NCBI RefSeq assembly: GCF_901411515.1
Contig: NZ_CABDUX010000002.1
Span: 1 to 64,000, forward strand
Direction of reading: 5' to 3'
Length of the DNA stretch: 64,000 bases
From: Raoultibacter phocaeensis
GTDB lineage: Bacteria; Actinomycetota; Coriobacteriia; Coriobacteriales; Eggerthellaceae
Under the pieces are notes generated by a model that was not told the DNA's origin, did not search any database, and was given only the letters and a program-made list of their open reading frames with translations. Below are positions 45,217 to 64,000 of this stretch, one piece after another. Position 1 is the first letter of the stretch; the number at the start of each line of letters is the position of its first letter. The translations under genes and the position numbers were made by a program.

Positions 45217-45819
45217 ATGGAAGAACAACCCCGATGCTCATGGCCAGGCGATATTCCGATATACGTCGACTACCACGACAACGAGTGGGGCAGGCCCTCC
45301 CACGACGACCGCGAACTGTTCGAACTCTTGATTCTCGAGGGTGCGCAGGCGGGCCTTTCGTGGATCACGATCCTGAAAAAGCGGGAGGCGTATCGCAAGG
45401 CTTTCGATGATTTCGATCCTGTGAAGGTGTCTCGCTACGATGAGAAAAAAGTTGAAGAGCTCATGGAAAACGAGGGGATCATCCGCAACCGCCTCAAGAT
45501 CAACGCGGCCATCGCCAACGCGAAGTTGTTTTTGGACATAGTCGAAGAGTTCGGAAGTTTCGACGCGTTCCTATGGGGTTACGTGGATGGCGCGCCTATC
45601 GTGAACCGATGGGAAAGTGAGGATGAGATTCCAGCGAGCACACCGCTTTCCGACCGCATCAGCAAGGATCTGAAGAAGCGCGGTTTCAAATTCGTCGGCT
45701 CCACCATCATGTACGCCTATATGCAATCCATCGGCATGGTGAACGACCATGTAACCGGGTGCTTCGTGTATAGGGAGCTGGCGGGCGGTCCCGCTGTGTC
45801 CGATGTGCGATCCAGCTAA
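45217..45819 (+). CDS. tag: DNA-3-methyladenine glycosylase I
   Basis: 200 residues. Removes 3-methyladenine from DNA in base excision repair. Family features: RCSWPGD, YVDYHDNEWGRPSHDDRELF, EGAQAGLSWITILKKREAYR, FDDFDPVKVSRY, IIRNRLKINAAIANA and KRGFKFVGSTIMYAYMQSIG. Zinc ligands would be the early Cys, the two His and the C-terminal Cys in MVNDHVTGCF. ATG at 45217 follows GAGGTGAGG. A close paralogue is at 59476-60051. The stop overlaps that of the converging ArsR-type gene. Confidence 0.93.
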   Translation: MEEQPRCSWPGDIPIYVDYHDNEWGRPSHDDRELFELLILEGAQAGLSWITILKKREAYRKAFDDFDPVKVSRYDEKKVEELMENEGIIRNRLKINAAIANAKLFLDIVEEFGSFDAFLWGYVDGAPIVNRWESEDEIPASTPLSDRISKDLKKRGFKFVGSTIMYAYMQSIGMVNDHVTGCFVYRELAGGPAVSDVRSS

Positions 45820-48792: not shown

Positions 48793-49284
48793 TTAGCAGC
48801 GCGTTGCGTAGAGGTCTACGTTGATGTGCCACGTGCCGTCATCTGCAACAGTGACGTTCTGCCAATGGAAGGCGTTGTCTTCAATGCTCGCGAAAACCCA
48901 CTTCTGCCGCTCGTCCGCGATGTTCGTCAGCACTATCATGCCGTCCTGTTTCCTCGCCTCGAGCCGTATGATCTTTCCCGTAAAGCAATAGGCGATGTCC
49001 CAGGCGTGCGTACCGGGGTTGTAAATGCGAAGCGTCGTCCCGTACTCTTCGTCGGGGTGGGGCGTTGCGGTTCTCGTGTCGCGCGAGGGTAGGATGATCA
49101 CGTCCTGTATCGCCATGCCTTCGAGAATACGTGCGAAATGCCACTCGCCCTTGACCGTGCGCAACGTGTTGTGGTCGATATAGTCGAAACTCCAGCTGCC
49201 GACGAGTGCACCAAAGTAGTCGTACTCTTCGGGCAACTCGTCGCTTTTGGCTTCACTTGTCAGGGTTTCTATGAAATTTTGCAT
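48793..49284 (-). CDS. Conserved hypothetical protein (DUF1579-like)
   Basis: 163 residues, soluble. The central pattern LVGSWSFDYIDHN, KGEWHFARILEGMAIQDVI and DEEYGTTLRIYNPGTHAWD resembles the beta-barrel DUF1579-type proteins, in which a Gly-x-Trp start opens the barrel; the match is by pattern only. Start at 49284 follows GGAGGA. It is a single-gene unit followed by a strong terminator. Function unknown; small-molecule binding is plausible for the fold. Confidence 0.6.
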   Translation of the reverse strand: MQNFIETLTSEAKSDELPEEYDYFGALVGSWSFDYIDHNTLRTVKGEWHFARILEGMAIQDVIILPSRDTRTATPHPDEEYGTTLRIYNPGTHAWDIAYCFTGKIIRLEARKQDGMIVLTNIADERQKWVFASIEDNAFHWQNVTVADDGTWHINVDLYATRC

Positions 49285-49423
49285 GCGATCATCCTCCGCT
49301 AACCAGTTTCTTTCGATGCGTGCATTGTACCTTTTGGAGACTGGTATCCATGGGCTTACGGCTGGATCATGGGTTTTCCTTAAGCGTGCAGCAGCATGCA
49401 CCTCTGTTTACGGTAAAGGCAGA

Positions 49424-50065
49424 TCAGCGCTCGTTGCTCGTCGTTGGCAACGTTTGCATGAGGGCGAAGAAATGCTCGGAATTCCCGCTGTTGAAGTATT
49501 CGTACCAGTGCTCCAGCGTATCCGATCGAAACACGTCGAGGCGCTCGATGATGTGCTTGGTCCACGGTAAAGCGCCTGTGGAACCTGCGGTGATGAGATG
49601 ATCATCCGCCACCGACGGCTCATCCCGGTACAATTGCTGTCCTTTGTAGCCGGGGGAGACCATCTCGAGGAAACCAGGCCCGTTGCTGGTATGCGGGCGC
49701 GCGTCTAGAAGGCCGGCGTCGGCAAGCGCAGCGGTGGCTCCGCAGATTGCGCACACCGTGGCATCCGAAGCGAGGAACTCGCTTGCTTTTTCGATAATGG
49801 CAGCATGGTTCGGGTCGTTCCAGGTGTTGGCACCTGGCAGCAAGAGCATGCTTGTCTTACTTGCGACGATATCGTCGACCAGGCAATCGGGCGTTATCGT
49901 CACTCCGCCCATGGTGTTGATCGGCTCTTTCGAGTAGCTTACCGTCTTGATCGCTAGGTGGGGTGCGTCTTTTTTGAAGAACCGTCTGGAATTGAGCTCC
50001 GCACTAACGTATCCCAACTCCCAATCGGCCAGCGTATCAAGGATGTAGATATAGATTGTGTACAT
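49424..50065 (-). CDS. DJ-1/PfpI-family protein
   Basis: 213 residues of the class I glutamine-amidotransferase-like fold. The nucleophile elbow is VCAICGATAALADAGLLD, with Cys near residue 108, and the preceding segment MLLLPGANTWND is the usual glutamate-strand region. Members act as deglycases, hydratases or regulators; the role here is unknown. Start at 50065 follows AGGAAAATGT. It shares orientation with the WYL regulator gene just upstream, which may control it. Confidence 0.85.
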   Translation of the reverse strand: MYTIYIYILDTLADWELGYVSAELNSRRFFKKDAPHLAIKTVSYSKEPINTMGGVTITPDCLVDDIVASKTSMLLLPGANTWNDPNHAAIIEKASEFLASDATVCAICGATAALADAGLLDARPHTSNGPGFLEMVSPGYKGQQLYRDEPSVADDHLITAGSTGALPWTKHIIERLDVFRSDTLEHWYEYFNSGNSEHFFALMQTLPTTSNER

Positions 50066-50185
50066 ACATTTTCCTGTTCTCGTTACGGTTTCTATCCGCG
50101 TTCAAGAAAAGCGGATAGAGCGGTCGGCTCCATGCGACATCCTAACAAAGAGAACATGACATCAGTATGTCTTGTTTATCGTACT

Positions 50186-51094
50186 TTATCGATAGTTCGA
50201 TACAATATTCTCTGCGGTGGTTTTCAGATCGTCCACAATGAAACGAGGCTCCACTACGTGCACCTTATCGCCAAAGCCGAGCAGCCAGGTAAGAATATAG
50301 TCGCGCTTCGTAAACGAGATCTCAAACCGCAAACCCGTGTCTGTTTCTTCGTAGCAATAGGGCCCGTACGCGTCGATTAGCCGATGCTTCTCGGACGGGT
50401 CGAACAGGGCGACGAGCGTATGCTCCCTATCTTCGGTAACCCAAGCCTCGAAGTCCTGCTTTTCCGGTGGAACAGCGCGCGGTGAAAACGTTTCATCGCA
50501 CACCTGCAGATTCCAGAGGCGCTGGAGTTTGAACAGCCGAAAATCCGATTGATCCAAGCAAAATCCGAACACATACCACGCTGTCCATTGGAACACAACG
50601 AAATGAGGCTCGATACGGCGATGCGATTCGCCTTTTTCGTAGATGTAGTCGAACTCGATGAGCCGGTTGCTAAGCACGGCGCTTTTTATGAGTTCGATTT
50701 TTTCCGAATGATGATCTCCGCCATGCGAAGCGAGATCGATGACCACGGGTTCGCGCATTGAGACGACCGCGTCGCTCTTGGCGTGGAACTTATCGAGAAC
50801 ACGTTCGATGCTTGACTGCTCGGATACGCTGCCGAGCCCTTTCAACGCAGCGATGATGCTCGCCAGCTCATCTGCGGTTAAGACGCTTTTATCCAGCTTG
50901 AACCCTTCGACAATCGAGATACCGCCGCCGCTTCCTTGCTGGGTCACGAGGGGAATCCCCGCCCTGCACATCGCGTCGATATCGCGCCCGATCGTGCGAC
51001 GACTGACCTCGAACCTTTCAGCCAGTTCGGGCGCAGTCACGCGATCCTTCTGGAGGAGTATGGTCAGTATGCCAAGCATTCGATCGAGTTTCAT
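50186..51094 (-). CDS. WYL-domain transcriptional regulator (YafY-like)
   Basis: 302 residues. N-terminal DeoR-type helix-turn-helix (RMLGILTILLQKDRVTAPEL, AERFEVSRRTIGRDIDAM), then a WYL domain from about 140: LIEFDYIYEKGESHRRIEPH and WTAWYVFGFCLDQSDFRLFK, and the C-terminal extension LLGFGDKVHVVEPRFIVDDL. WYL domains bind nucleic acids or small ligands. The DJ-1 gene lies 120 bases downstream and is the likely target. Start ATG at 51094. Confidence 0.9.
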   Translation of the reverse strand: MKLDRMLGILTILLQKDRVTAPELAERFEVSRRTIGRDIDAMCRAGIPLVTQQGSGGGISIVEGFKLDKSVLTADELASIIAALKGLGSVSEQSSIERVLDKFHAKSDAVVSMREPVVIDLASHGGDHHSEKIELIKSAVLSNRLIEFDYIYEKGESHRRIEPHFVVFQWTAWYVFGFCLDQSDFRLFKLQRLWNLQVCDETFSPRAVPPEKQDFEAWVTEDREHTLVALFDPSEKHRLIDAYGPYCYEETDTGLRFEISFTKRDYILTWLLGFGDKVHVVEPRFIVDDLKTTAENIVSNYR

Positions 51095-51240
51095 AGTTCA
51101 TCACCGATTGCAGCATAGCGCAAAACACGACGATGGGTGACGTGTTCTGTTCAAGCCATAGCAATTGGAATGTGGGTCAGAGGCAGGGCATGGCTGTTGC
51201 CGCACTGCGTCTTAATGTAGAGCCGGCTGAACGCAAGCTA

Positions 51241-51283
51241 TTGTTCTACGACACCAAAATGATCTATCATTCTATCCTAGGAT
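51241..51283 (+). promoter_or_regulatory. Promoter with ATCCTAGGAT operator ahead of the NrfD-GntR-SPFH operon
   Basis: TTGTTC at 51241-51246 and TATCAT at 51265-51270, 18 bases apart. The 10-base palindrome ATCCTAGGAT follows at 51274-51283, where transcription should start. Close relatives of this palindrome occur at 53776-53790 and 53795-53810. Confidence 0.65.
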
Positions 51284-51323
51284 TGAAGGGGTGCATTTTG
51301 GACGCGAGAGCGGGAGGTCGGTC

Positions 51324-52250
51324 ATGTTCGGCATTTTGATCGTGTGCTACCTGTTCTTGGGCGGACTTGGCGGGGGGTTGTGCTTGGTGCTTTCGCTTAC
51401 GGGGCTTGCCGTTCCGCACGAAAGGCTCAGCCAGAGGTTGTCCCCATCGTATCGAAGCTTCTTTCGGTACGGATATACCGCATCGGCCTGCGTGCTCATT
51501 GCAGCCGCATTGTGTTTGCTTGTTGATTCGGGAAACCATGGAGCATTGACCTACTTGTTTTTCTCGGGGCGCATCACGTATCTTTCGGTGGGGTCGTATA
51601 TGCTCGTGGGTGCGGTAGCGCTCAGCGCGCTCTTGGCGTATCTTTGGGTGGTTCGAACTTCCGTGCAAAGGGTGGGGGTTTTCAGGGCGCTTCTGATTGT
51701 CGCCGCGCTTATCGGACTTGCGGTTGCTTTGTATACAGGGCTTTTTCTGGCGAGTATGCAAGCGGTTCCGTTTTGGAACACACCCTGGCTTCCGATGCTC
51801 TTTCTGCTCTCTTCTGTCTCTTGCGGGTTAGTTGCCGCTTTGATAGTTGGGCACATGAGCGGGGTGTCCTTGCAGTTCGAACAGTATTTCTCTCGCATGG
51901 CGGCCGTCGATGCGGCGGTTCTCGTTCTCGAGGCCGTGTGCCTGATCGGTCTTATTCTGAGTTCGCTGTTCGCGGGTGATTCCAATTCTGCCTCTGCTGC
52001 GGCACGCCTCTCGGCGAATGCTCTTATTTTCGGTGAATACGCTTGGATTTTCTGGTCAACATCGGTGTCGATCGGGCTTGTTGCCGCGTTTGTTGTCGAT
52101 GTGGCTGTTGCGAAATCCGGGCAGGTTTTGCTAGGCCGTCCCTTTTACTCCCTTGTGCCAGGGGTATGCGTGTTTGCAGGTGCTTTTACCTTGAGGTTCT
52201 GCATAGTGATGGCAGGAGAACACCCTGTCGCTAGTCTTTTAGGAGCGTGA
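51324..52250 (+). CDS. NrfD/DmsC-like membrane anchor subunit
   Basis: 308 residues with about eight membrane spans (ILIVCYLFLGGLGGGLCLVL, ALLIVAALIGLAVALYTGLFL, and so on), the pattern of NrfD/PsrC/DmsC quinol-binding anchors of molybdoenzyme complexes. Start at 51324 follows GGGAGG. It is the first gene of an operon with the GntR and SPFH genes, and the complex it would anchor (Mo subunit and 4Fe-4S subunit) is encoded by the next operon at 53965-58650. That second operon has no NrfD gene of its own, which supports the pairing. Confidence 0.8.
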   Translation: MFGILIVCYLFLGGLGGGLCLVLSLTGLAVPHERLSQRLSPSYRSFFRYGYTASACVLIAAALCLLVDSGNHGALTYLFFSGRITYLSVGSYMLVGAVALSALLAYLWVVRTSVQRVGVFRALLIVAALIGLAVALYTGLFLASMQAVPFWNTPWLPMLFLLSSVSCGLVAALIVGHMSGVSLQFEQYFSRMAAVDAAVLVLEAVCLIGLILSSLFAGDSNSASAAARLSANALIFGEYAWIFWSTSVSIGLVAAFVVDVAVAKSGQVLLGRPFYSLVPGVCVFAGAFTLRFCIVMAGEHPVASLLGA

Positions 52251-52254
52251 TCGC

Positions 52255-52737
52255 ATGGCAACCATCTCAGCCGACGGCTTTCCTTTCGAGGCTGATTCGG
52301 ATTCGACTTCCCCCTTGTGGGTCCAATTGCGAAAACGCATCGTTTTTCTGATAGGCTCCGGCTACTTGAAACCAGGCGATCAGCTGCCCAAGATACGCGA
52401 ACTCGCGGCGGCTTTGTCGATAAACTTCAATACGGTGAACAAATCGTATCTAAGCTTGTCTTCCGACGGCTATGTGGAATCGATTCGAGGGAAGGGCGTG
52501 TTCGTCTGCAACGTAGCGAAATCGGTAGACGAAGCAGAGCAAGGGGAGCTGGAGGCCCTGCTGGACGATTGCCTTCAAGCTTGCAAAAACCTTGGCTTAA
52601 GCTACGACGAGACGGTGGCGCAGATGACGCTTTACGTTCGGAGGCTGAAGATGAGGGAAGCCCAAGCGCATGTTGAGCCGGGAAGCAATGTGATCGAGCT
52701 CAAAACGCCCAATGTTTCTACGAAGAGGGAGGCGTAA
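52255..52737 (+). CDS. GntR-family regulator, YtrA type
   Basis: 160 residues. N-terminal winged helix: PLWVQLRKRIVFLIGSGYLK, PGDQLPKIRELAAALSINFN, TVNKSYLSLSSDGYVESIRG. The short C-terminal helical region (about 80-140) is typical of the YtrA group, whose members dimerise without a large ligand domain and usually control neighbouring membrane-protein genes. It starts 4 bases after the NrfD stop and ends 5 bases before the SPFH gene. The ATCCTAGGAT palindromes in front of this operon and the next are the probable targets. Confidence 0.9.
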   Translation: MATISADGFPFEADSDSTSPLWVQLRKRIVFLIGSGYLKPGDQLPKIRELAAALSINFNTVNKSYLSLSSDGYVESIRGKGVFVCNVAKSVDEAEQGELEALLDDCLQACKNLGLSYDETVAQMTLYVRRLKMREAQAHVEPGSNVIELKTPNVSTKREA

Positions 52738-52742
52738 CGATC

Positions 52743-53735
52743 ATGGCCAAAGATAAAAGCGGGGTAGCGCCACGCTCTTCGAAGGAGGAACCGGGTCGCG
52801 CCGAAAGACTCGGTGCCTATCAGTTCGTTCCCAAGGACAATGCTCAGCCTCCCGGGGAGCGCACTACGGGGGCGGGCATCATTTTGTTTTCGCTGTTCGT
52901 GTTCTGCATCGTGTTCATTGCAGTGTTCGCGCTCGGCTTCACGTTGTTCGGTCGCGCATTGCCGCTCGTGACGTTGTTCTCGTTCGTAGCCGCCATGCTC
53001 GCGTCGATGTCGATCCATATTGCTCAGCAGTGGGAGCGTGTGGTCGTACTCCGCTTGGGAGGCTTCAACCGCGTATCGGGGCCGGGTTTGTTCTGGACCA
53101 TTCCGTTCTTCGAGCAGAACGCCATGCGCGTCGATTGCCGCGTGCGCGCTACCACCCTCGATGCAAAGGAGACGCTCACGGCCGATCTGGTACCCTTAGA
53201 CGTGAATGCGGTCTTGCTGTGGATGGTTTACGATGCCAAGGCGGCCTGCACCGAATGCAGCGATTTCAGTCGCACGGTTGAGCTGAGTGCGCAGGCGGCT
53301 CTGCGCGATGCTATCGGACGCTTAACCGCGGCGGAAGTGGCAATTCGAAGGGAGCAGTTGGATATCGATATCAAGGAGGCTTTGGAGGCGGAGGCAGAGC
53401 AATGGGGTCTTTCGGTTCTTTCGGTAAAGGTCCGCGATATCCTGCTTCCCTTCGAGCTGCAGGGCGTGATGAGCATGGAGGCCCAGGCGGAGCAGCGCCG
53501 CAAAGCCCGCGTGATCCTCATGGAGGCCGAAGAGGACATAGCCACCATGGTGAGCGCAGTGAGCGAAGTTTACGGTGGGGAAGACGCCGCCTTGAAGCTG
53601 CGATCAATGCATTTACTGAACGAAAGCGTGCGCGAGGCAGGCAGCACGTTGGTGGTTCCCAGCAGCTTTAGCGAGGGGTTTGGCGACGTGTTGCCTGATG
53701 AAGCCAAGAAAACCATTGCGAAGAAGTTAAAATAG
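52743..53735 (+). CDS. SPFH/band-7 (stomatin-like) membrane protein
   Basis: 330 residues. A polar N-terminus of about 40 residues, two adjacent membrane spans (IILFSLFVFCIVFIAVFALG, LVTLFSFVAAMLASMSI), then the SPFH domain: QQWERVVVLRLGGFNRVSGP, GLFWTIPFFEQNAMRVDCRV, TTLDAKETLTADLVPLDVNA, and ILLPFELQGVMSMEAQAEQR. Stomatin-like proteins form oligomeric membrane scaffolds. Its place between the NrfD anchor and the molybdoenzyme operon, and co-transcription with the GntR regulator, suggest a role in assembling or shielding that respiratory complex. This is inference. Confidence 0.9.
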   Translation: MAKDKSGVAPRSSKEEPGRAERLGAYQFVPKDNAQPPGERTTGAGIILFSLFVFCIVFIAVFALGFTLFGRALPLVTLFSFVAAMLASMSIHIAQQWERVVVLRLGGFNRVSGPGLFWTIPFFEQNAMRVDCRVRATTLDAKETLTADLVPLDVNAVLLWMVYDAKAACTECSDFSRTVELSAQAALRDAIGRLTAAEVAIRREQLDIDIKEALEAEAEQWGLSVLSVKVRDILLPFELQGVMSMEAQAEQRRKARVILMEAEEDIATMVSAVSEVYGGEDAALKLRSMHLLNESVREAGSTLVVPSSFSEGFGDVLPDEAKKTIAKKLK

Positions 53736-53775
53736 CTCAACTCCCTGAAGCAATTATCCTCAAAGAAGTATCGAG

Positions 53776-53821
53776 CAATCCTAAGATTAGTATAGCAATC
53801 CTAGGATTGCCGTGCTATGAT
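53776..53821 (+). promoter_or_regulatory. Tandem palindromic operators and promoter of the Mo-reductase operon
   Basis: CAATCCTAAGATTAG at 53776-53790 is an imperfect palindrome, and GCAATCCTAGGATTGC at 53795-53810 is a perfect 16-base one; their starts are about 20 bases (two helical turns) apart. TATGAT at 53816-53821 is a good -10, so the second site covers the -35 zone. The same core as at 51274-51283 implies a shared regulator, most simply the GntR protein at 52255. Confidence 0.7.
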
Positions 53822-53964
53822 TTTGAAAAATCGATCGGTTTTCAGAAACAAGCAAGAAGACGTGAAAACGCTTTATTGTTGCGTGGGATACGGGGCGCCG
53901 ATGATTTCGCTGTGCGGTTTGCTGCAAAACTCGCGGCGTCCTCCGTTCGATAGGGGGAGGATAC

Positions 53965-56478
53965 ATGGACAAATCCAGTAAAAAACTAACAAGAAGGTCG
54001 TTCTTGGCTACGACAGCTTTGGCTGCCGGCGCGCTCGCAACGGCAACGGCAGCAGGCTGCAGCAGTGTAGACGAATCGGGAACCGGCGCAGCGAACGTCG
54101 ATTCCGGTACGGCCGCTCCTGAAGAGTCGTACTTTGTCGGCACATGCCATGGCAACTGCGGTGGACGCTGTGCTCTGAAGGCAACGGTACGCGACGGCAA
54201 AATCGTAAGCACGCTACCGATGGACTACACCAAGGAGAACGAAGGGCTGCGTGTTGGATGCGTCAAAGGCGTATCCAATCCGTTGCGCATCTACGGCCCT
54301 TCGCGCCTTATGTATCCCATGAAGCGCGCCGGCGAACGTGGCAGTGGAGAATGGGAGCAGATTTCCTGGGACGAAGCTATCGAACTATTCGCCAACCAGC
54401 TGAAGACCACTATGGAGACGTACGGTGGACAGTCCAATATGTGGCAGGGCGGTGCCGGCAATATGAACGGCATTCTCAACGGCACGCCGACGGGCATCAT
54501 CAACAGCGCTCTGTTGCCGTCTGGCGAAATCAAGCCGCTCGATAGTTTCAGCAAGGGATATGCCAACTCGCGTCTCATCCAAAAGACCGGAGGCACGGTT
54601 CTGTCGGTCGGTCACGACATGGCGGGCATCGTGTTCGCCTTTGTGCACTTGACTCAGCCGCGGAGTGCGGTAGAGGATCTCGCAAACGCCAAGACCATAG
54701 TTTCTTGGGGCGCAAATCCCGCCGAGGCTTCCTTCTGTCGAGCTGCATGGAACTGGGTCTGCAAAGGCAGGGAGAACGGAGCGAAGCTCATCACCATCGA
54801 TCCTTTGTTCACGTCGACTGCGGCCCATTCCGACGAATGGCTTCCCGTTCGCACCGGCACCGATGCGGCGCTCATGTGCGGCATGATCCACTACATTGTG
54901 GACAACGATCTCGCTGACTGGGAGTACGTAAAGAACGGCTCAGTCGCCCCGTTTCTCATTGATGAGACGGGGGCCTATGTCCGACTCTCGAACTTCGGTA
55001 AGGCCGAAGCCGGTACCGACGAGGACGTTCCAGTTGTATGGGACGAGGATGCGGGGGAGTTTGTTGCTCATACAGAAGCCGCTAACCCAGCAATTCACGG
55101 TACGTTCGATGCCGAGGGAGCAAGCGTACGCACGGTATTCGATGCCGCTATGGATAACATCGCGCCCTTTACCGTTGCATTCGCAGCTGAGGAATGCGGT
55201 ATCTCCGTCGAGCAGATAGAGAATCTCGCCCGTATCTGCGCAACGGAAGGTCCGACGAGCTTCTATATCAATTACGGACTTGAACATACGTACGAATCGT
55301 GGCGCATCTACTTCCTTATCGGGCTGCTTGCCTCCCTGACTCACAGCGTGGGTATTCCCGGCGGATCGCATGTGGGCAGCATCGGCCTCGGCCACGAATC
55401 CGCCACAACGATTAAGCAGCCGAAAACGTTCAATGCGGAAAGCTTCATCGTCGAAGACGCCGTTCCGGGCAACCATTTTACGGGCGACTGGATCGTTCAG
55501 ATTGCGGAGACGGGGCAGTGGGCAGGTAAGGATTTCCATATGGGCACGCTTGTCAATATGTGCGCCAATCCGCTCGACAACTTCTCCGGATCGTCCGCTC
55601 TTCTGAAAGCGTACGACAAGATCGATTACATCATCACCATAGACAGCATCATGACCACCACGGCCCATTACTCCGATCTGGTTCTTCCCACCTGTATGCC
55701 TTGGGAAACCTACGAGTACATCGACGGGGGAATCTTCGAGCAAAAGGCCATCGAGCCGGTTGGTGATGCGAAGTCGGATTTCGATATCATCAAATCCGTT
55801 GCAGTAAAAATGGGCTACGATGATTTGATCGAAGGGGAGGGTCTCGATTTCTTACGATCGTATCTTGATACGCCTGAAAACATCGAGGCGGGCGTCGGCT
55901 TCGATGCGTTGTCTGAAAATGGTGTCGTGATCGGCGATTACACAATGCCTGCCACCGTCGTGCCGGAATACAACCCCTACGGCCGCACCCAATTCTACAT
56001 GGAATACCTGATGCCGCGCGACGCTTGGGGACAGGTGTTCGGTCTGCAGGATCGCTTGCCGTTCTACAAGCCGTCCATCGAAGCCTATGCGGACAATCCG
56101 GATCGTGAGAAATACCCCCTCTACGGCTTCAGCAACCACGACCTCTACCATGGGCAGACGCTCTGGATCCACAACGAGTGGCTCGACACCTTCAGAACCC
56201 TTGAAGGAAAACCGTTCTGCCGTATGCATCCCGAAGTGGCCGAAGCGCGCGGTATCAAAACGGGGGATACGGTGCGGGTGTTCAACGACCATGGTTCATG
56301 TGTCTTAAACGCCCTTGTTACCGAGGGAATCCGTAACGATTCGCTCTGGCTGCCGCATGGCTTTACGTGGGACGAGTTCGAAGAAGGCTACGCTCAATCG
56401 CTCACGCGTTGGTGCCCCGATGATGTAACGAGCAATAACAATTTCAATGACTGGATCTGTCAGGTCGAGAAGGTATAA
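53965..56478 (+). CDS. Tat-exported molybdopterin oxidoreductase catalytic subunit, DMSO-reductase family
   Basis: 837 residues. The twin-arginine signal is LTRRSFLATTALAAGALATA, with Cys32 in AAGCSS that could serve as a lipid attachment site. The [4Fe-4S] motif is C61-x3-C65-x3-C69 (TCHGNCGGRC) with a later Cys in VGCVKG. Cofactor segments: SRLMYPMKRAGERG, TIVSWGANPAEASF, GAKLITIDPLFTSTAAHSDE, GTDAALMCGMIHYI and, near the C-terminus, GIKTGDTVRVFNDHGSCVLN. It should reduce an external electron acceptor such as an S- or N-oxide; the acceptor is unknown. Start follows GGGGGAGG. It heads an operon with the 4Fe-4S subunit and the TorD chaperone. Confidence 0.9.
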   Translation: MDKSSKKLTRRSFLATTALAAGALATATAAGCSSVDESGTGAANVDSGTAAPEESYFVGTCHGNCGGRCALKATVRDGKIVSTLPMDYTKENEGLRVGCVKGVSNPLRIYGPSRLMYPMKRAGERGSGEWEQISWDEAIELFANQLKTTMETYGGQSNMWQGGAGNMNGILNGTPTGIINSALLPSGEIKPLDSFSKGYANSRLIQKTGGTVLSVGHDMAGIVFAFVHLTQPRSAVEDLANAKTIVSWGANPAEASFCRAAWNWVCKGRENGAKLITIDPLFTSTAAHSDEWLPVRTGTDAALMCGMIHYIVDNDLADWEYVKNGSVAPFLIDETGAYVRLSNFGKAEAGTDEDVPVVWDEDAGEFVAHTEAANPAIHGTFDAEGASVRTVFDAAMDNIAPFTVAFAAEECGISVEQIENLARICATEGPTSFYINYGLEHTYESWRIYFLIGLLASLTHSVGIPGGSHVGSIGLGHESATTIKQPKTFNAESFIVEDAVPGNHFTGDWIVQIAETGQWAGKDFHMGTLVNMCANPLDNFSGSSALLKAYDKIDYIITIDSIMTTTAHYSDLVLPTCMPWETYEYIDGGIFEQKAIEPVGDAKSDFDIIKSVAVKMGYDDLIEGEGLDFLRSYLDTPENIEAGVGFDALSENGVVIGDYTMPATVVPEYNPYGRTQFYMEYLMPRDAWGQVFGLQDRLPFYKPSIEAYADNPDREKYPLYGFSNHDLYHGQTLWIHNEWLDTFRTLEGKPFCRMHPEVAEARGIKTGDTVRVFNDHGSCVLNALVTEGIRNDSLWLPHGFTWDEFEEGYAQSLTRWCPDDVTSNNNFNDWICQVEKV

Positions 56479-56491
56479 GGGGGCATCGATA

Positions 56492-57118
56492 ATGACTAAG
56501 TATGGAATGGCGATAGATACGAACCGCTGCACGGGCTGCAATATGTGCTCGATGTCTTGCAGGGTGGATCACAACTTGCCGAACGACGTGCTTTACAGTA
56601 CGGCTGTCACCGACGGGAGCGAATATTTCCGCGTGCCGACGGGGACGTATCCGAATGATCTGACGATGACGTTCTACACGATGTCGTGTCAGCACTGCGA
56701 CAACCCTTCGTGCGTTGAGGTGTGCCCCACCGGTGCTGCGTATAAGCGTGAAGAAGACGGCATCGTTTTGGTTGACAACGAAAAGTGCATCGGATGCAAG
56801 AGCTGTGTCGCCGCATGCCCGTACGAAGGCGTACGCACTCTGCTATCGTCCGAGCCGACGTATCCCCTCGATTTCCAGATCGGTGACTATAGGGCTCAAG
56901 AGCATAAGCCGAACACCATGGAAAAATGTACCTTCTGCGTCGAGCGGATAGACGCAGGCGAGCGGCCTCTGTGCATCGACTTGTGTCCTGCCGTTGCTCG
57001 GTATTTCGGTGATTTGGACGATCCCGAATCAGAGGTATCGAAGGTTTTGCAACAGCGCGAGTACGAGCAGCTGTTGACCGATCAGGGTACCGGTCCCAAC
57101 GTGTACTTCCTGCGGTAA
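56492..57118 (+). CDS. DmsB-like [4Fe-4S] electron-transfer subunit
   Basis: 208 residues with four ferredoxin-type cysteine clusters: RCTGCNMCSMSC, MSCQHCDNPSCVEVCP, KCIGCKSCVAACP and KCTFCVERIDAGERPLCIDLCP. It carries electrons between the membrane anchor and the catalytic subunit and is exported with the latter through Tat by piggy-back, as in DmsAB. Start at 56492 (MTKYGMAIDTNRC) follows AAGGGGG; the longer frame from 56447 overlaps the upstream gene. It lies 13 bases after the catalytic subunit gene. Confidence 0.93.
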   Translation: MTKYGMAIDTNRCTGCNMCSMSCRVDHNLPNDVLYSTAVTDGSEYFRVPTGTYPNDLTMTFYTMSCQHCDNPSCVEVCPTGAAYKREEDGIVLVDNEKCIGCKSCVAACPYEGVRTLLSSEPTYPLDFQIGDYRAQEHKPNTMEKCTFCVERIDAGERPLCIDLCPAVARYFGDLDDPESEVSKVLQQREYEQLLTDQGTGPNVYFLR

Positions 57119-57149
57119 AGGTTTTTGCGCTTCAAGCGCACATGATGTG

Positions 57150-57185
57150 CGACGGGATCGGAGTGCTATGCTTCCGATCCCGTCG
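57150..57185 (+). terminator. Intercistronic hairpin
   Basis: CGACGGGATCGGA at 57150-57162 pairs perfectly with 57173-57185 around a 10-base loop, followed by A-rich rather than T-rich sequence. It lies between the 4Fe-4S and TorD genes and may lower or stabilise expression of part of the transcript. Confidence 0.5.
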
Positions 57186-57209
57186 AGAAAAATGAGAGGG
57201 GGAATCGGG

Positions 57210-57893
57210 ATGGGGGATGGCAAAGCACCCGATGAGTGGATGTACGGGGCGACGGCATTCGAGCTCTTGTCTTTGGCTTTTCTGCTGCCCACGAAAGATA
57301 CGGCGGAAGCTTTGGTTGCGGGCGAGTTCGCGGATGCATGCGAAGAGGTTTTGGTTGCACTCGAATGCGAATCGGCCGCCAGGGACGAGATCACATCCTT
57401 TTTGTCGGGGTATGGCGGGAAAGATGCCGAAGAGGTGTTTCATGTCCTGCGCACAGAATACACGTACCTGTTCGTGGGCGAGCGCGAGCCGCGGGTTACT
57501 CCTTTCATCGGCGTTTGGGCTGCGCACGAGCGCGGGCAGAAGGGCTTGCTTTTCGTGAACAAGGAGTCGGTTGAAATCGAGCACTTCATGCGCGATCGGG
57601 GAGTTACGAAAAACCTCGCGGCCGGTCAGGTAAACGACCCGGTGGACCATATCGGAACGGTTTTCGAGTTTGTGAAGTATCTTTGCCTGGTGAACGCGAA
57701 AGCGATACAGGCGCCGGAAAACGTGGCCATCGAAGAAGGCGACTACGAGACGTTCGTTTGTGAGTACGTTTCGTTCTATGCCCGCTGGTTTGCCGATCAG
57801 GTTTTCGAACAGGCGCGATGTCCGTTTTATAAGGCGATGGCTTTGTTCCTCGGGCAGGTGCTCGAGCTTTTCGCTCCGAAGCGAAGCGCGTAG
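57210..57893 (+). CDS. TorD/DmsD-family redox enzyme maturation chaperone
   Basis: 227 residues, all-helical. TorD-type patterns: AFELLSLAFLLPTKDTAEAL, HVLRTEYTYLFVGEREPRVTPF (the conserved YxxLF and P region), FEFVKYLCLVNA and ARWFADQVFEQARCPFYKAM. It binds the Tat signal of the catalytic subunit and helps cofactor insertion before export. I prefer ATG at 57210 after GAGAGGGGG over an upstream ATG at 57147 that lies inside the hairpin region. Third gene of the Mo-reductase operon. Confidence 0.88.
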   Translation: MGDGKAPDEWMYGATAFELLSLAFLLPTKDTAEALVAGEFADACEEVLVALECESAARDEITSFLSGYGGKDAEEVFHVLRTEYTYLFVGEREPRVTPFIGVWAAHERGQKGLLFVNKESVEIEHFMRDRGVTKNLAAGQVNDPVDHIGTVFEFVKYLCLVNAKAIQAPENVAIEEGDYETFVCEYVSFYARWFADQVFEQARCPFYKAMALFLGQVLELFAPKRSA

Positions 57894-57933
57894 GCTTTCA
57901 TCTGGCTGAAATGCATAAGGAGGTGGTTAAGAC

Positions 57934-58650
57934 GTGAGCTTTGCTCTGGTCTTTATTGTCGCATGCGGGGTCGTCATCGCGTTGGCGGGCTTCATAAAGA
58001 GATTGCCGTTGCTGTTTTACGCGTTCGCTGTTTTGGCGGTTGTACTGCTGTTCGCGGGCACGGAAGGCTATATCGACGGCGGTTGGTGGAAGCCGCTCAT
58101 TCTGTTGGTGAAGCGCTGTATGTTGGCGCTTTCGCTCTTTACGATCGTCATGTTCACGGGGGCGCTGTCGAGGGAGTCGTGGCTCGGTATTCGGCTTCGC
58201 TCGATTCGATCCGAACTCTCTATTGTTGCGTGCATCCTCTGTGCGGGGCACGTATGCCAGTACCTTGTTGCGTACGTTTCGCGTGCTGTTGCGGGGTCGC
58301 TCGATCTAGAGACGGGGGCGTCCATCTTCATCGCTTTGGTTTTGTTCGTGCTCTTGATCGTTCTCGGGGTTACATCGGGCAACGCCATGAAGAAGCGGAT
58401 GAGGGGCGTTAGCTGGAAGCGCATCCAATGGTTCGCCTACCCGTTTTTCCTTCTTACGTACGTTCATCTGATGCTGATGATTGCGCCTGCGGCCTTCCTC
58501 GGCAGCGAGCAGGCAATGGTGAACGCGCTAGTGTATTCGGTTGTATTCGCGGCATACGTGATCATGCGCCTCTATCGGTATGCGAAGGATAAAGGCGCCA
58601 AGGCGTCTGTTGAAGCATGCAAAGATACCGGGGGCTTGGGGGAGGGGTAG
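57934..58650 (+). CDS. Seven-span membrane protein, possibly ferric-reductase/MsrQ-like heme protein
   Basis: 238 residues with about seven hydrophobic spans. Two histidines sit inside spans (LCAGHVCQYLVAY, LTYVHLMLM), which could ligate heme b as in the ferric-reductase-like/MsrQ group; the match is by topology and not certain. GTG at 57934 follows AAGGAGG. It lies 40 bases after the TorD gene and is the last gene of the operon. It may offer a second route for electrons from quinol, or an accessory role. The C-terminus is short and charged. Confidence 0.7.
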   Translation: MSFALVFIVACGVVIALAGFIKRLPLLFYAFAVLAVVLLFAGTEGYIDGGWWKPLILLVKRCMLALSLFTIVMFTGALSRESWLGIRLRSIRSELSIVACILCAGHVCQYLVAYVSRAVAGSLDLETGASIFIALVLFVLLIVLGVTSGNAMKKRMRGVSWKRIQWFAYPFFLLTYVHLMLMIAPAAFLGSEQAMVNALVYSVVFAAYVIMRLYRYAKDKGAKASVEACKDTGGLGEG

Positions 58651-58689
58651 GGTTTGCGGTTTTACGACTGCAGGGATATGCTCGGTCAT

Positions 58690-59449
58690 ATATTGGGCAA
58701 GGGCGTGGAGCTGCAAAGCGTCGTGCGCGATGGGATTGAGCGCATGTGATGCGGCGACCCGGCCGTGGGGGCGGCGTGCGCGGCTGCTGTTCCCGTTGAT
58801 CGGGCGCTTGTGCGACGGGTGGTGAGCGCACGAGGGCAAGCGTGAGGAGGCGCCGATGCACGGGTTCTGCCGCGACCGCATGTCGCGGCCGAGCGGGTGT
58901 CGGGCACGCATGCGCGTTTCGAGACGGCCTCCGACGCGGGGACGCGGGCGGTGTATCTCTTCGACTTCCGCCCGCGCGCGGACTTCTCGCTCGAGGGCGC
59001 GACCATCGTGAAGACGCATACCGTGGAGAACACGGGCGAGGCGTCGATGCCGTTTGAGCTGGGTGGCATCGAAACGTACGCGACGCGCCTGCTGCCGAGC
59101 GAGCATGGGACGACTACTTCGTGCGCTTCGAGTGGGTGGACGCTTTGAAGATGTTCGGCATGGACGGGGGCATCCTCGCGCTGCCGAAGATCGAGGTGCC
59201 GCTCGAGGACAGCCACCTGGCGAAAACACCCGAGCAGCTGGGTGTCGACACCATTGTGCTGGAGAACGTGCCCGGCAGCAAGGTCGTGCTCGCGAGCACC
59301 GCGAACCCGCACGAGGTGGAGGCGGAGTCCCCGGACTTCCCCTCCCGGGCATCTGGACGAAGGCCGGCCAAGACGACGCCCGCTACCTCTGCCTCGAGCC
59401 GTGGTCGGCGCTGCCCGACGCACAATTCTCCCCGCGCACGCTTGCGTAA
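58690..59449 (+). pseudogene. Degraded aldose 1-epimerase (LacX/GalM-like)
   Basis: Successive frames together rebuild an aldose 1-epimerase: GVELQSVVRDGIERM then stop; ATRPWGRRARLLFPLIGRLC then stop; EAPMHGFCRDR; AVYLFDFRPRADFSLEGATI; DYFVRFEWVDALKMFGMDGG; VVLASTANPHEVEAESPDF; FPGIWTKAGQDDARYLCLEP and ALPDAQFSP. At least four frame changes or stops break it. G+C is high, unlike the sequence after 60.1 kb. It directly precedes the second glycosylase gene and marks the edge of a rearranged region. Confidence 0.75.
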
Positions 59450-59475
59450 CGGATGACGTTTCGCTAGTGGGTTCT

Positions 59476-60051
59476 GTGGAGGAGAAGACCAGGTGCGCGT
59501 GGGCGGACACGCCGATCTACGTGGACTACCCTGACAACGAGTGGGGGAGGCCCACCCACGATGACTGCGAGCTGTTCGAGCTGCTGGTCTTGGAGGGTGC
59601 GCAGGCAGGCTTGTCGTGGCTCACCATCCTCAAGAAGCGCGAGGCGTACCGCGAGGCCTTCGACGGCTTCGATCCCGCCAAGGTGGCGCGCTACGACGAG
59701 GCCAAGGTCGAGGAGCTCATGGCGAACGCGGGCATCGTCCGCAACCGCCGCAAGGTCGAGGCGGCCGTGACCAACGCGCAGCTGTTCCTGGACGTGGTCG
59801 AGGGGTTCGGCAGCTTCTATGCGTTCATCTGGTGGTACGTGGACGGCGAGCCCATCGTGAACCGTTGGGAAACCCAAGCGGATATGCCGGCCACCACGCC
59901 GCTGTCCGACCGCATCAGCAAGGACCTCAAGAAGCGCGGCTTCAAGTTCGTCGGCTCTACCATCGTCTACGCCTATATGCAGTCCATCGGCATGGCGAAC
60001 GACCACGTGGTGGATTGTTTCGTGCGAGAGGAGATGGTCGAGGAGCTATAA
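59476..60051 (+). CDS. tag: DNA-3-methyladenine glycosylase I, second copy
   Basis: About 191 residues, very similar throughout to the gene at 45217: CAWADTPIYVDYPDNEWGRP, EGAQAGLSWLTILKKREAYR, GFDPAKVARYDEAKVEELMA, SDRISKDLKKRGFKFVGSTI and the C-terminal DHVVDCFVREE. All family zinc-ligand positions look present. The start is probably GTG at 59476, aligned with the first copy's ATG; no strong ribosome binding site is visible. It follows the epimerase remnant by 26 bases. It looks intact, but expression is uncertain. Confidence 0.85.
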   Translation: MEEKTRCAWADTPIYVDYPDNEWGRPTHDDCELFELLVLEGAQAGLSWLTILKKREAYREAFDGFDPAKVARYDEAKVEELMANAGIVRNRRKVEAAVTNAQLFLDVVEGFGSFYAFIWWYVDGEPIVNRWETQADMPATTPLSDRISKDLKKRGFKFVGSTIVYAYMQSIGMANDHVVDCFVREEMVEEL

Positions 60052-60085
60052 GCAGTCCTTGGCACGAAGTTTGCGCAAAGCTTTG

Positions 60086-61735
60086 TCAATACAATTGACC
60101 GGGATCATCTTCGACCTCCTTTTGCAAGGTTCGATATTTTCTGCCCACGAGTACTGATGGGTGAATGCCGCCAGCAATAGCATTGAGGTCGTCTCCATTG
60201 ATCAAGAGCATGCTCTTTCCTTGGCATGCAAGTCTTGTCGACTGTTCGGTAGCCACCTTGCTAAATCCAGACATTGAAACGATCAGGCCGGTTCTGCTTC
60301 CTTTCGCATCCATGACAAAAGATAAATTACGCACAACGGAAACTCCCGTGATCTCGACCCTGTTCTTGCATTCGACAAGCAATATGGTTCCCATGTCCCA
60401 GGCATTCTGATTCAGCGACGCGTTTACATAGCACAGATCTATCTCGCAATCGTCTGCTTTGACTCTTCGGCCCGCTAATAGCCACCCTTCAACGGCACTT
60501 AGCATATATGCGACCAGATTCTCAAGGGCTATGCCTTTATCCGAGGTGGCTGAGGCTTTGCAGTTTGCGAGCAATTCGCAGAATCGTTCGCAACTGAAGG
60601 CCTGTGACTCAAGAGGTAATGTCATCGCGTCAGGAAGGTTCTTACGCAAAATCGGCATTATGGCGTTTAGCTGATAGACCCTATACGGCATTTCAAGAGC
60701 GAAACGCCTTGTCAATGAAGATTCTTCTATGCCTCTCAATGACTTAGCAGCATGTTCAGCGGACATGAGAAACGATTTGAGAAAAATGTCTTCATCAACG
60801 ATTGCTTCACTTGTCTCATAAGGGAGTCTCGCTTTCAGCGTCTCCAGGAAATCTCGATAGATGCTTCGCGCTTCATTTAAACTCCATTTGCGAATATAAA
60901 ACGAAATGGCGCAGCAGTATAAGAGCGCACTGATCCACTCGTCCGCAATATGATAGGGCAAGATATGTATTCCGTAGCCGTAAGCTGGTGTCATCAGAAT
61001 TTGCTCGATATCGACTTCTGTCCATCGGCCGACTATAGACGAGTCTGTTTGCCGACCGATAAGAGGGCCTTCACCGCTTAGGTTGATTCTCCTGGCACCT
61101 TCAAGAAGCAGTTCCCATTCGTGTTCACGGGGATTGAAGAATGGCGCTATGATTCTTTTGCCCCTCGTGGAATTGAGCAGAAATGAGGTTGTGATTATCT
61201 GGTGCTTGAAAAGAGCGGGTTCTTCCTGCTCGATCCAAGCTTCTGCAAATTGTTGAAGAGAAAGTAGGCATTCGTTTTTCCCAGGGTAAGTTTCTCCCGC
61301 CGTCATTATAAGCAATGCGAATTCCTCTTCATCGTCGTACATTTGAAGATAACTTGCTTTCGACCACGGCGTTACGATACTCGCTATCGGCGCGCACAAA
61401 TCAAGAAACTCTTCGAAGCTTTTGCCATAAAGAACCTCAAGAGTCGTTGGCTCAAATAACGAGCCATCGTCAGGATCGCCGCAGATTACCGAGTTCATCG
61501 AGAAGCCATAAGACCTTTCGAGAAGAACATTCCTGAACACATCAACGTCTTTTTCATGCCCGAAGAATCCGTATACCTCGGAAAAACTGACACCCTCTTT
61601 CGTTGCAATTGAAGACTGCTCGTCGCGCAGTTCGGCGATGCGTTCAATAAAATTTAATGGGTGCTGCATAGTATCTTTCGAGACAAACTGGAACTTCTCT
61701 CCGTCGTCAAGTACTGCAAGGTATAAAAATTCCAC
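60086..61735 (-). CDS. PD-(D/E)XK nuclease-like protein
   Basis: 549 residues. The C-terminal part (about 410-545) has a restriction-endonuclease-like core: GIALENLVAYMLSAVEGWLL with Glu, RVKADDCEIDLCYVN with Asp, and ILLVECKNRVEITGVSVVR with Glu-x-Lys, then RTGLIVSMSGFS. The first ~400 residues are acidic, helical and unrecognised. A GTG start at 61735 is likely. G+C is lower than in the rest of the window. It is divergent from the small ORF and PHP-ATPase at 62334-64000. A defence nuclease (Mrr-like) is the best guess; no methyltransferase is beside it in the window. Confidence 0.65.
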   Translation of the reverse strand: MEFLYLAVLDDGEKFQFVSKDTMQHPLNFIERIAELRDEQSSIATKEGVSFSEVYGFFGHEKDVDVFRNVLLERSYGFSMNSVICGDPDDGSLFEPTTLEVLYGKSFEEFLDLCAPIASIVTPWSKASYLQMYDDEEEFALLIMTAGETYPGKNECLLSLQQFAEAWIEQEEPALFKHQIITTSFLLNSTRGKRIIAPFFNPREHEWELLLEGARRINLSGEGPLIGRQTDSSIVGRWTEVDIEQILMTPAYGYGIHILPYHIADEWISALLYCCAISFYIRKWSLNEARSIYRDFLETLKARLPYETSEAIVDEDIFLKSFLMSAEHAAKSLRGIEESSLTRRFALEMPYRVYQLNAIMPILRKNLPDAMTLPLESQAFSCERFCELLANCKASATSDKGIALENLVAYMLSAVEGWLLAGRRVKADDCEIDLCYVNASLNQNAWDMGTILLVECKNRVEITGVSVVRNLSFVMDAKGSRTGLIVSMSGFSKVATEQSTRLACQGKSMLLINGDDLNAIAGGIHPSVLVGRKYRTLQKEVEDDPGQLY

Positions 61736-62333
61736 GATGATCCCATCTCGAAATAGTAACGCTTTGTCAATTTCTCTAATAAATCTAGCAAAAGGGTGCC
61801 TAAATCATATTGTCCGTATTGATAATAGTTATCTTTTTCAATATGCGAAAGACTAGCAAGCTATCTACGCTTTTGCAGCTTCCTCCTCGTCCAACAGCTG
61901 GCGCGCGAAAGCTATGGCGTCGTCGATGTTCACGCAGAAGTGGTCCTCGCCCACGAGGTCCACGACGTCGAGCGTTGTTGCCGCGGCGCTTGAAATGCTG
62001 GGTCGGCCCTCGGAAAGTTCCTTTTCCAGTAGCCTGTTCGGGTAGGTCTTGACCGATAGTGGGATCGACCTTTCAGACGCAGTAGCGCTCGAAAGGTCGA
62101 TCTTCAGCGGAACCGTCCGTTGCAAAATGCGCTACTGCGGCGTGGGCCACTCCCGGCGGAAGGACGGATGCGAGCGCAACCATGTCGAGCTCTGCAAACT
62201 CCTCCCCAAGAGCCATGTCTCCTTCGGTCAGCCTTTTATTGGGGGTAAGGCTGCGACTAACCTATCTTTGTTATTTGATAGAATGCAAAAGGTCATATAA
62301 GCGCTTCAGTCTTTGTTTGGTTAGGATGGATAC
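61736..62333. other. Gap with nested inverted repeats and short minus-strand reading frames
   Basis: The first 120 bases are A+T-rich and probably hold the nuclease promoter. Between 61865 and 62216 the DNA is G+C-rich and contains two overlapping minus-strand frames: one of 47 residues (62073-62216, ending DGSAEDRPFERYCV) and one of up to 86 (61865-62125, ending DDAIAFARQLLDEEEAAKA). They read like protein, but match nothing I know and may be remnants. TAGAAT at 62279-62284 may be the -10 for the next ORF. Confidence 0.4.
62063..62139. repeat. Two interleaved perfect inverted repeats
   Basis: GATCGACCTTTC at 62063-62074 is complementary to 62091-62102, and CGCAGTAGCGC at 62078-62088 is complementary to 62129-62139. 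The second pair starts inside the loop of the first, so the two stems form a pseudoknot-like or switch-like arrangement. Confidence 0.6.
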
Positions 62334-62495
62334 ATGGAGTATGTTGAAATACTTGATTCCGATGCGTCTTTAGCGGGCTATTCAGCCATGTCTCATCTAT
62401 TCAGGACTGTATCGCAACTATTAATTTCGGAATGCGTTGTATCTGGGATATGCAGGCACGGGGCGAAGTGTTGGGCAAATAGGATAAAGCTATGA
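62334..62495 (+). CDS. Small ORF coupled to the PHP-ATPase
   Basis: 53 residues beginning MEYVEILDSDASLAGYSAMS and ending CRHGAKCWANRIKL, with three cysteines in the second half. TTAGGATGG lies upstream of the ATG. Its TGA overlaps the ATG of the PHP-ATPase gene (ATGA), a typical sign of translational coupling. No family is recognised. It may be a real small partner, or a leader peptide that controls the ATPase. Confidence 0.45.
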   Translation: MEYVEILDSDASLAGYSAMSHLFRTVSQLLISECVVSGICRHGAKCWANRIKL

Positions 62496-64000
62496 TTTCA
62501 ACTAAGAAGATCGTCAATACACCTGTTAAAGTCGACTTCCATATCCATTCCGCCGCTTCCGCCCACAAGGACGGAGAAAAGGTCAAAGACGGAACGGCGG
62601 ATAATACTAGTGTTCTTTTTAGCATGCTTGAAGAGAATCAAGTGAATATGGCCGCTATAACTGACCACGATATTTTCGACTACTCAGTATACAAGGCTTT
62701 GCGGGCTAAAACAAAAAATGCTGTCCATCTGCACCGAGTTCTGCCAGGCGTCGAGTTTACTGTTTCCTTCAAAACTGACAGAGGCGATAGGCCTGTCCAT
62801 ATTGTCACCTTGTTTGACGATACGAAGCAGGAACTTGTGCAATCCATCGCTAATGCGATTCCGCTCAAAAACGGAAAACCTGACTATGATATGAGCAATG
62901 CTTTCAGCGAAGACAAGTACTGGGGCATCATTCGCGCAATCGGTCTCGACATCGTTGCGATTGCCCACCAGAAAGCATCCCCTGGTTCGGACCGGAAAAG
63001 AAAAAACGATGCAAATAGCGTTGGTGACGCGCTCTTCAACGAGTTCCTCTTTGTTGAGTACTTCGAGGCTTACGAATACAAAAACCGTCGGAATGAGCTA
63101 TTCAACAAAAATTACGCCTACTCGACAGACCAGCTTGAACAGCTACGATTCATTACGGGATCCGATTGTCACACTTGGAGTTCATACCCTGCATATGATG
63201 CCAGCTCTGACCCAGATCTTCCCTACTCCTACCTCAAGTGTTTGCCAACCTTCAAGGGCCTCGCTATGGCCGTGACAGACGTTTCTCGCATCAGGACTGT
63301 TCCGAGTTTCTTTAGCGGCTCTACAACAACGCTCGATGCAATTGAGCTGACCTTGAATGGTGCGGACGTAAGCATACCTTTATCGCCCGGAATAAACGCA
63401 ATCATTGGCGACAACTCGATAGGCAAGTCTTCTCTGTTGAATGCCATAAATGGCTATCGAGAAATTGGGGCCACAGTTCAGAAAGGGCAGTCAAGGTACC
63501 TTGAGGAGTCGGGTCTTGTCCTGAAAACCACCATTCCGGAAGATTACCTTTTGCAGTTCGACGGGCAGGATGCTATCAGGAAGAGTTTTGAGGGCTTGAG
63601 TGTGGGCAAGGCTAAAAAGCAGCTCGAAAAGCATTTCCCGGATCCCGTGAACCCGGATTCGTTCAAGAGTTTTGCAATGAACCAGTTTAAGAAGTTTCAT
63701 GCAGCCCTGAGAAAGTCGTGTAAGTACCAGGAGTCACTTGCAGCCCTAGGTGTATTCAAACTTCCTGAGCAACCGCCGTTGGGTGCACCTCAGAGTATAA
63801 CCTTTGATAAAAGCGTCAAACTAGACGATGTCTCATGTCATAATGGGCTCGTCAATGATGTCAAGAATGCTCGTATCCAGCTTGGAGGTGTCATCGAGCT
63901 TCATGAAGAGGCCATCCTGAAAGAAGATGAGCCGGACTTTGAAGCTGCGATAGCCGCTCTGGATCGTATCGTAAAACGCCATCAAACCATCGTTGATGAA
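62492..64000 (+). CDS. PHP-domain AAA/SMC-like ATPase (3' end outside the window)
   Basis: 503 codons are open to the window edge. Residues 12-235 form a PHP metallo-hydrolase domain with all motifs: DFHIHSAAS (HxH), MAAITDHD, LPGVEFTV, IVAIAHQK and TGSDCHT. After about residue 285 an SMC/Rad50-like ATPase starts, with Walker A IGDNSIGKSSLLNAINGY near 312; a helical, probably coiled-coil region follows, and the Walker B part must lie beyond 64000. PHP plus ATPase fusions (a family I believe is named TrlF-like in current annotation) are often found in defence islands. Codon use and G+C are lower than in the core genes. ATG at 62492 follows AGGA. Confidence 0.8.
   Translation, partial: MISTKKIVNTPVKVDFHIHSAASAHKDGEKVKDGTADNTSVLFSMLEENQVNMAAITDHDIFDYSVYKALRAKTKNAVHLHRVLPGVEFTVSFKTDRGDRPVHIVTLFDDTKQELVQSIANAIPLKNGKPDYDMSNAFSEDKYWGIIRAIGLDIVAIAHQKASPGSDRKRKNDANSVGDALFNEFLFVEYFEAYEYKNRRNELFNKNYAYSTDQLEQLRFITGSDCHTWSSYPAYDASSDPDLPYSYLKCLPTFKGLAMAVTDVSRIRTVPSFFSGSTTTLDAIELTLNGADVSIPLSPGINAIIGDNSIGKSSLLNAINGYREIGATVQKGQSRYLEESGLVLKTTIPEDYLLQFDGQDAIRKSFEGLSVGKAKKQLEKHFPDPVNPDSFKSFAMNQFKKFHAALRKSCKYQESLAALGVFKLPEQPPLGAPQSITFDKSVKLDDVSCHNGLVNDVKNARIQLGGVIELHEEAILKEDEPDFEAAIAALDRIVKRHQTIVDE

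Follow-up and report, generated by a model that had tools for sequence, protein, structure and literature searches.

PHP-domain ATPases, among them TrlF, Ppl and the PDC-M49 group of PADLOC, are common but poorly understood ATPases of the defence type. Ppl has been reported as a 3'-5' exonuclease of single-stranded DNA (ssDNA) that nucleoside triphosphates inhibit and that nucleotide depletion together with 3'-OH ends licenses (PMC12904381). The gene name trlF comes from the temperature-restriction operon of Photorhabdus (PMC7554251), and the TrlF family was presumably named after that gene. Integrases are known to target the 3' end of guaA, with the core GAGTGGGA (PMC9376610; PMC4701971), and a guaA-bordered defence island has been reported in Stenotrophomonas maltophilia (PMC11680222). 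Here, a stretch of 64,000 nucleotides (nt) from Raoultibacter phocaeensis (source genome G000, 3.86 Mb in total) is described, which forms the start of a 1.9-Mb contig (C2) and is called the window below. It holds part of an acquired islet of 7.2 kb that lies at the guaA 3' end and carries two independent units, namely a gene for an Mrr-type nuclease of 549 amino acids (aa) and a PHP-SMC/ABC ATPase gene overlapped by a small partner gene. Both units would be anti-phage or anti-plasmid defences. Contig numbering beyond position 64000 is used for the ATPase end, the partner gene and guaA; the extended locus is L002.

The boundaries of the islet were read from G087, the only further genome of the same genus compared. 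In its locus (L046), the segments 48800-58637 and 65798-67896 were found by blastn to be collinear and only 180 bp apart; 58638-65797 is therefore an insertion and ends on the right at the guaA stop region. It occupies the place of a spacer of 180 bp, with a membrane-protein gene on one side and the guaA 3' end, which begins at 65798, on the other. The part inside the window is 58638-64000, with no strand assigned. The G+C content drops over 60050-65700 and amounts to 46-48% in the nuclease and ATPase DNA against 55-65% in the flanks, in keeping with the lower G+C noticed in a first-pass annotation made from the sequence alone. Besides the nuclease, the ATPase and the 99-aa partner gene, the islet includes a broken epimerase gene, another copy of tag and a SulP/STAS-like remnant. 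The guaA end beside it has the GAGTGGGA core.

The ATPase gene starts at 62492 on the plus strand, divergent from the nuclease gene, and had been recognised in the first-pass annotation as PHP-domain and SMC-like. Extension past the window, which covers 62492-64000, places its end at 64873 and yields a protein of 793 aa. The PHP metal ligands are H17 and H19 (HxH), D58 and H59 (TDH, 57-59), E88, H159, and D225 and H227 (DxH, 225-227). The ABC motifs comprise the Walker A sequence GDNSIGKS (306-313), LSxG, the Walker B sequence VDQPED and the H-loop residue H728, and 24 homologues show no or almost no variation in either set. In the AlphaFold model (predicted local distance difference test, pLDDT, 83.6), the PHP domain matches RNase AM and the head matches those of SMC, RecN, Wadjet JetABC and AriA, the last being also the best sequence match of the head among PDB chains. 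The NCBIfam scores are 163.4 bits for TrlF (TrlF_fam_ATP; cut-off 350), 63 for Spaf_1101 (475) and 58.2 for Ppl (1000). To judge from these scores, the ATPase is related to all three families and a member of none.

Co-occurrence was counted over 140 genomes of Eggerthellaceae, 16 of which carry the ATPase. Two viral contigs were matched by its clade, and a search of plasmids and phages returned only distant matches, below 60% identity and never over 80% of the query. In the dN/dS comparison, synonymous sites were saturated. The neighbours of homologous operons are the usual company of defence genes: an Eco57I-type methylase with GmrSD in L050, HsdR-N/N6_Mtase in L054, HsdR in L058, GmrSD in L061, RloB in L065 and a phage integrase in L066. 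The suggestion of an anti-phage-type island, made in the first-pass annotation, gains from this company, with genes of the HsdR, HsdM, Eco57I, GmrSD and RloB kinds, and from the position of the acquired islet at an integration hotspot. In two genomes whose PHP-ATPases belong to different subfamilies (L028 852-4753; L045), the same pair of a DNA-adenine-methylase-like gene and a 672-aa gene lies near the ATPase.

The ATPase is accompanied by a 99-aa gene on the plus strand (contig 64857-65156; L002 9858-10157), past the end of the window. It begins with ATG and shares 17 nt with the end of the ATPase gene, and its Shine-Dalgarno sequence, AGGAGG, lies within the coding end of the ATPase and is kept in the two nearest relatives. 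In a survey limited to one genome per species, an equivalent gene was found in the same place in 24 of 24 loci with a readable ATPase 3' end, from Actinomycetota, Bacillota and Mollicutes-type genomes. A profile built from 21 partner proteins, with the G000 copy left out, matches that copy at 2.7e-14. Among the family genomes, the profile hits exactly the four with a close ATPase, each time at the ATPase 3' end, and no orphan copies; across the order, seven of 251 genomes were matched. No family in Pfam, NCBIfam or PADLOC names the partner, one homologue having a sub-threshold Ykof match, and no significant relatives were found among PDB sequences. A literature search, largely confined to work outside subscription journals, found no paper on the ATPase-partner operon. 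The AlphaFold model of the partner has a beta-beta-beta-alpha-beta order followed by C-terminal helices. The ATPase belongs to a unit of two genes that is conserved, and the family libraries searched lack its small member.

The more distant PHP-ATPases of the family are also overlapped or abutted at the 3' end by a gene of about 95-115 aa. Comparison of the partner profile with those of the distant small genes was suggestive for one group (P 4e-4, probability 34%) and gave nothing for two others. Because the homology of the distant partners is not established, we propose one shared family of partners only for the clade of the 793-aa protein.

The small coupled gene named in the first-pass annotation lies on the other side of the ATPase, as a 53-aa open reading frame (ORF) upstream (62334-62495, plus strand). 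Its ATGA overlap with the ATPase start is real, but it is most likely not a gene: tblastn against 18 homologous loci gave only one match, of 15 aa and E=0.9, which is put down to chance. Upstream of the ATPase, the DNA of the three closest relatives cannot be aligned, and the neighbour on that side varies by locus. With no counterpart in homologous loci, this ORF was rejected as the partner; the actual partner overlaps the opposite, downstream end.

A possible role for the partner is indicated by three loci (L054, L056 and L061), where it is extended by a Peptidase_S24 domain (E values between 2e-18 and 5e-21). LexA cleaves itself at A84-G85 by means of S119 and K156. Each of the three fusions has Cys-Ala-Gly ahead of the domain, a serine in GDSMEP or GESMEP and a lysine in CKR, with identical spacing throughout (C106/S139/K175, C121/S154/K190 and C110/S143/K179). 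This geometry is close to that of LexA/UmuD-type self-cleavage. The three sequences suggest that RecA activation can lead to release of the N-terminal partner domain by cleavage, and such a cleavable fusion would be a natural arrangement for a brake released by DNA damage.

Taken as a whole, the evidence favours, with a probability of roughly 0.6, a defence islet in which the ATPase pair is Ppl-like and the partner serves as a regulatory subunit and, most probably, as a brake. The SMC/RecN-like heads and the coiled coil would sense abnormal DNA, such as ends or single strands from phage replication. Sensing would allow the PHP domain at the N terminus to attack nucleic acid, as has been described for Ppl, which is probably the best available guide to the mechanism. 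Translation from a start inside the ATPase gene would couple production of the partner to that of the ATPase. Where the partner is fused to a LexA-type self-cleaving domain, as in some relatives, removal of the brake would be tied to DNA damage through the RecA filament. A more far-reaching proposal, which we regard as tentative and rather doubtful, is an unnamed, widespread two-gene family of gut Actinomycetota and Bacillota, in which a PHP-SMC nuclease-ATPase is kept inactive by a co-translated protein of about 100 aa and, in lineages with the LexA-type domain, RecA-activated damage directly frees the nuclease. A small partner missed by the libraries and at times fused to an SOS-type self-cleaving domain may give direct access to the way in which such nucleases are silenced and activated.

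Several points weigh against the favoured reading. The brake role rests on three fusions among about 24 loci, and the model of the partner is moderate (pLDDT 76.5) and matched no solved fold (best E 0.28). Phage defence and the sign of the partner, whether inhibitor or activator, are both inferred. The ATPase stays far under the curated cut-offs, with 58 bits where Ppl requires 1000 and 163 where TrlF requires 350, and the mechanism of these systems may not carry over because their examples have no overlapping partner. As to mobility, no downstream GAGTGGGA and no 10-mer repeat around the islet were found that could represent a second attachment (att) copy, and no spare long ORF for an integrase was seen in the islet, whose ORFs were not profile-scanned one by one for integrases. 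A search for classical att repeats around the islet likewise found none. Because neither a second core copy nor an integrase was seen, the islet looks like a decayed or fixed remnant, or a segment moved by recombination between its flanks.

The partner could instead be an obligatory activating or targeting subunit that binds, for example, DNA ends or a phage trigger, the S24 fusions reusing the peptidase fold for partner binding. Its constant place behind the ATPase and its absence as a lone gene from the genomes searched agree with this proposal, and the beta-rich N-terminal half and C-terminal helices of the model would suit an interaction module. A plain binding module, however, has no need of the self-cleavage site and dyad that the S24 fusions retain at fixed spacing, and an activator is considered unlikely, though it fares best among the alternatives.

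Somewhat less probable again is a toxin-antitoxin-like abortive-infection unit, in which the PHP domain attacks host RNA and is restrained by the ATPase and the partner, as AriB is by AriA in PARIS. The nearest PHP structure, RNase AM, is an exoribonuclease, the closeness of the ATPase head to AriA points the same way, and RloB-type and restriction neighbours do occur. Against it stands the best-described relative, Ppl, with its reported 3'-5' exonuclease activity on ssDNA (PMC12904381).

The second unit is the nuclease gene (60086-61735, minus strand), which the first-pass annotation had called restriction-like. The Pfam domain Mrr_cat (PF04471) is matched at 8e-7 and 29.6 bits, above the cut-off of 21, and supports that call, as does the catalytic series D433...E455-x-K457, invariant in four of four homologues. 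An N-terminal part of about 400 aa, of unknown fold, precedes the Mrr-type PD-(D/E)XK domain. The nuclease occurs in four of the 140 family genomes and in two of 397 genomes of the phylum; it has no constant neighbour other than the guaA/tag surroundings, no copy in viral contigs or plasmids was found, and a sequence search for relatives of solved structure in the PDB returned none of significance. It is a rare stand-alone Mrr-type gene.

The view of the first-pass annotation that the nuclease, the 53-aa ORF and the ATPase make up one new three-part system has very little left in its favour. The genes are adjacent and share a low G+C, but the nuclease-ATPase pair was rejected as one system for this family by the co-occurrence test that the first-pass annotation had itself proposed: with the ATPase in 16 and the nuclease in four of the 140 genomes, both occur only in G000 and in none of the 139 others, and the 53-aa ORF is not conserved. 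Moreover, a permease remnant lies between the two genes in G000, though it abuts tag in G021; because it sits there, the nuclease and the ATPase unit are suggested to have come in separately. The defence-type islet is real, but the wrong pieces had been grouped. A housekeeping repair or RNA-processing role for the ATPase at a fixed place, to which its SMC/RecN and RNase AM resemblances might point, is equally improbable given its patchy distribution, the empty site in the same genus, and its varying positions and neighbours.

The two units share their landing site. All four nuclease genes of the family (G000, G056, G067 and G006) lie at the 3' side of a guaA, within 9.1 kb and in the same orientation as guaA, and two of them begin about 90-190 bp past the guaA stop. 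The PHP-ATPase is found at most 20 kb 3' of a guaA paralogue in ten of the 16 ATPase-bearing genomes (G000, G001, G008, G021, G026, G030, G046, G076, G078 and G090). Most of the remaining ones have no guaA on the same contig, and in G064 the ATPase is 85 kb from guaA. The proximity expected is about 1.2% per genome, related genomes not being fully independent. No tRNA lies within 35 kb that would speak for a tRNA-linked insertion. In Eggerthellaceae, defence-type genes have landed repeatedly at the guaA 3' end, and the 3' side of guaA is a fixed address at which more of them can be sought.

Further observations concern guaA ends. The islet-side guaA (L002 10802-11782; contig 65801-66781) aligns to the synthetase part only; a longer second guaA, about 55% identical, is located at C2:222110, and in the family each of the two paralogues serves as an anchor of the hotspot. 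The guaA 3' end of G021 (L047 3027-5680) carries a different low-G+C pair, consisting of an SMC-like ATPase (559 aa) and a protein of 347 aa, which we take, with no Pfam support, to be possibly a defence pair of the ABC-three-component type. In G006, an AbiEii toxin gene (L033 14049-15478) with an adjoining AbiEi-like gene follows directly past the nuclease homologue at the guaA end. Genes for a TetR regulator and a 4Fe-4S membrane protein (L002 12897-14900; contig 67896-69899) are present in G000 and G067 and absent between matching flanks in G087.

The left part of the islet begins with a broken aldose-epimerase-like pseudogene (58701-59445, plus strand), seen as short ORFs in shifted frames. 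It matches L031 2761-3517 at 82% DNA identity and corresponds there to an intact 290-aa ORF (2718-3590). At 59485-60051 (plus strand) follows what is presumably, by sequence recognition, a tag-like gene for DNA-3-methyladenine glycosylase I. It is the second copy in the genome, 77% identical to that at 45229-45780; the two are 14 kb apart and in the same orientation, and only the second is within the islet. The remnant between the nuclease and the ATPase (61865-61965, minus strand) is presumably, again by recognition of its sequence, the C-terminal end of a SulP/STAS-like permease. It corresponds to the end of the permease reading frame in L047, shows an 85-89% DNA match to the segment beside tag in relatives, and lies inside an 86-aa minus-strand ORF (61865-62125). 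This ORF was considered as an antitoxin and dropped because its conserved end is the remnant. At 62063-62102, about 390 bp upstream of the ATPase, lies a perfect inverted repeat with arms of 12 bp, GATCGACCTTTC/GAAAGGTCGATC, separated by 16 nt; it may be an operator, a terminator or a scar.

Compared with described elements, the islet shares the landing site and the GAGTGGGA core with the integrative elements of the guaA 3' end, such as GIsul2 and the integrative and conjugative elements of Streptococcus (PMC9376610), but differs from them in showing neither an integrase ORF nor a second att copy. The nuclease has the C-terminal catalytic domain and the PD-(D/E)XK residues in common with Mrr-type restriction endonucleases (PF04471), and is set apart by its long N-terminal part, which has no Pfam or PDB match, and by its very restricted distribution. 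For the ATPase, the PDC-M49A models of PADLOC match its PHP and ATPase ends, although only partially (43.5 bits), and no PDC-M49 model matches the small partner. TrlF (NF045780) resembles the ATPase in its N-terminal PHP domain and in a split ABC/SMC ATPase with intact motifs in one chain; its examples are plasmid-carried and sometimes stand beside type I restriction genes. The TrlF cut-off is not reached, the protein is shorter (793 aa against 846-913 aa in TrlF examples), and four TrlF examples have no counterpart of the overlapping partner of about 100 aa. Nor is the trlR-trlF-trlG operon matched, the neighbours of the ATPase being the 99-aa gene and guaA, with no TrlG-like gene adjoining. 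None of six plasmid-borne examples of TrlF or Ppl has an overlapping small gene. Ppl (NF042955) likewise combines a PHP domain and a P-loop ATPase in a single chain and is a plausible mechanistic guide (PMC12904381), although its cut-off is far from reached. Ppl is a single-gene system, whereas the ATPase described here has a conserved, overlapping second gene.

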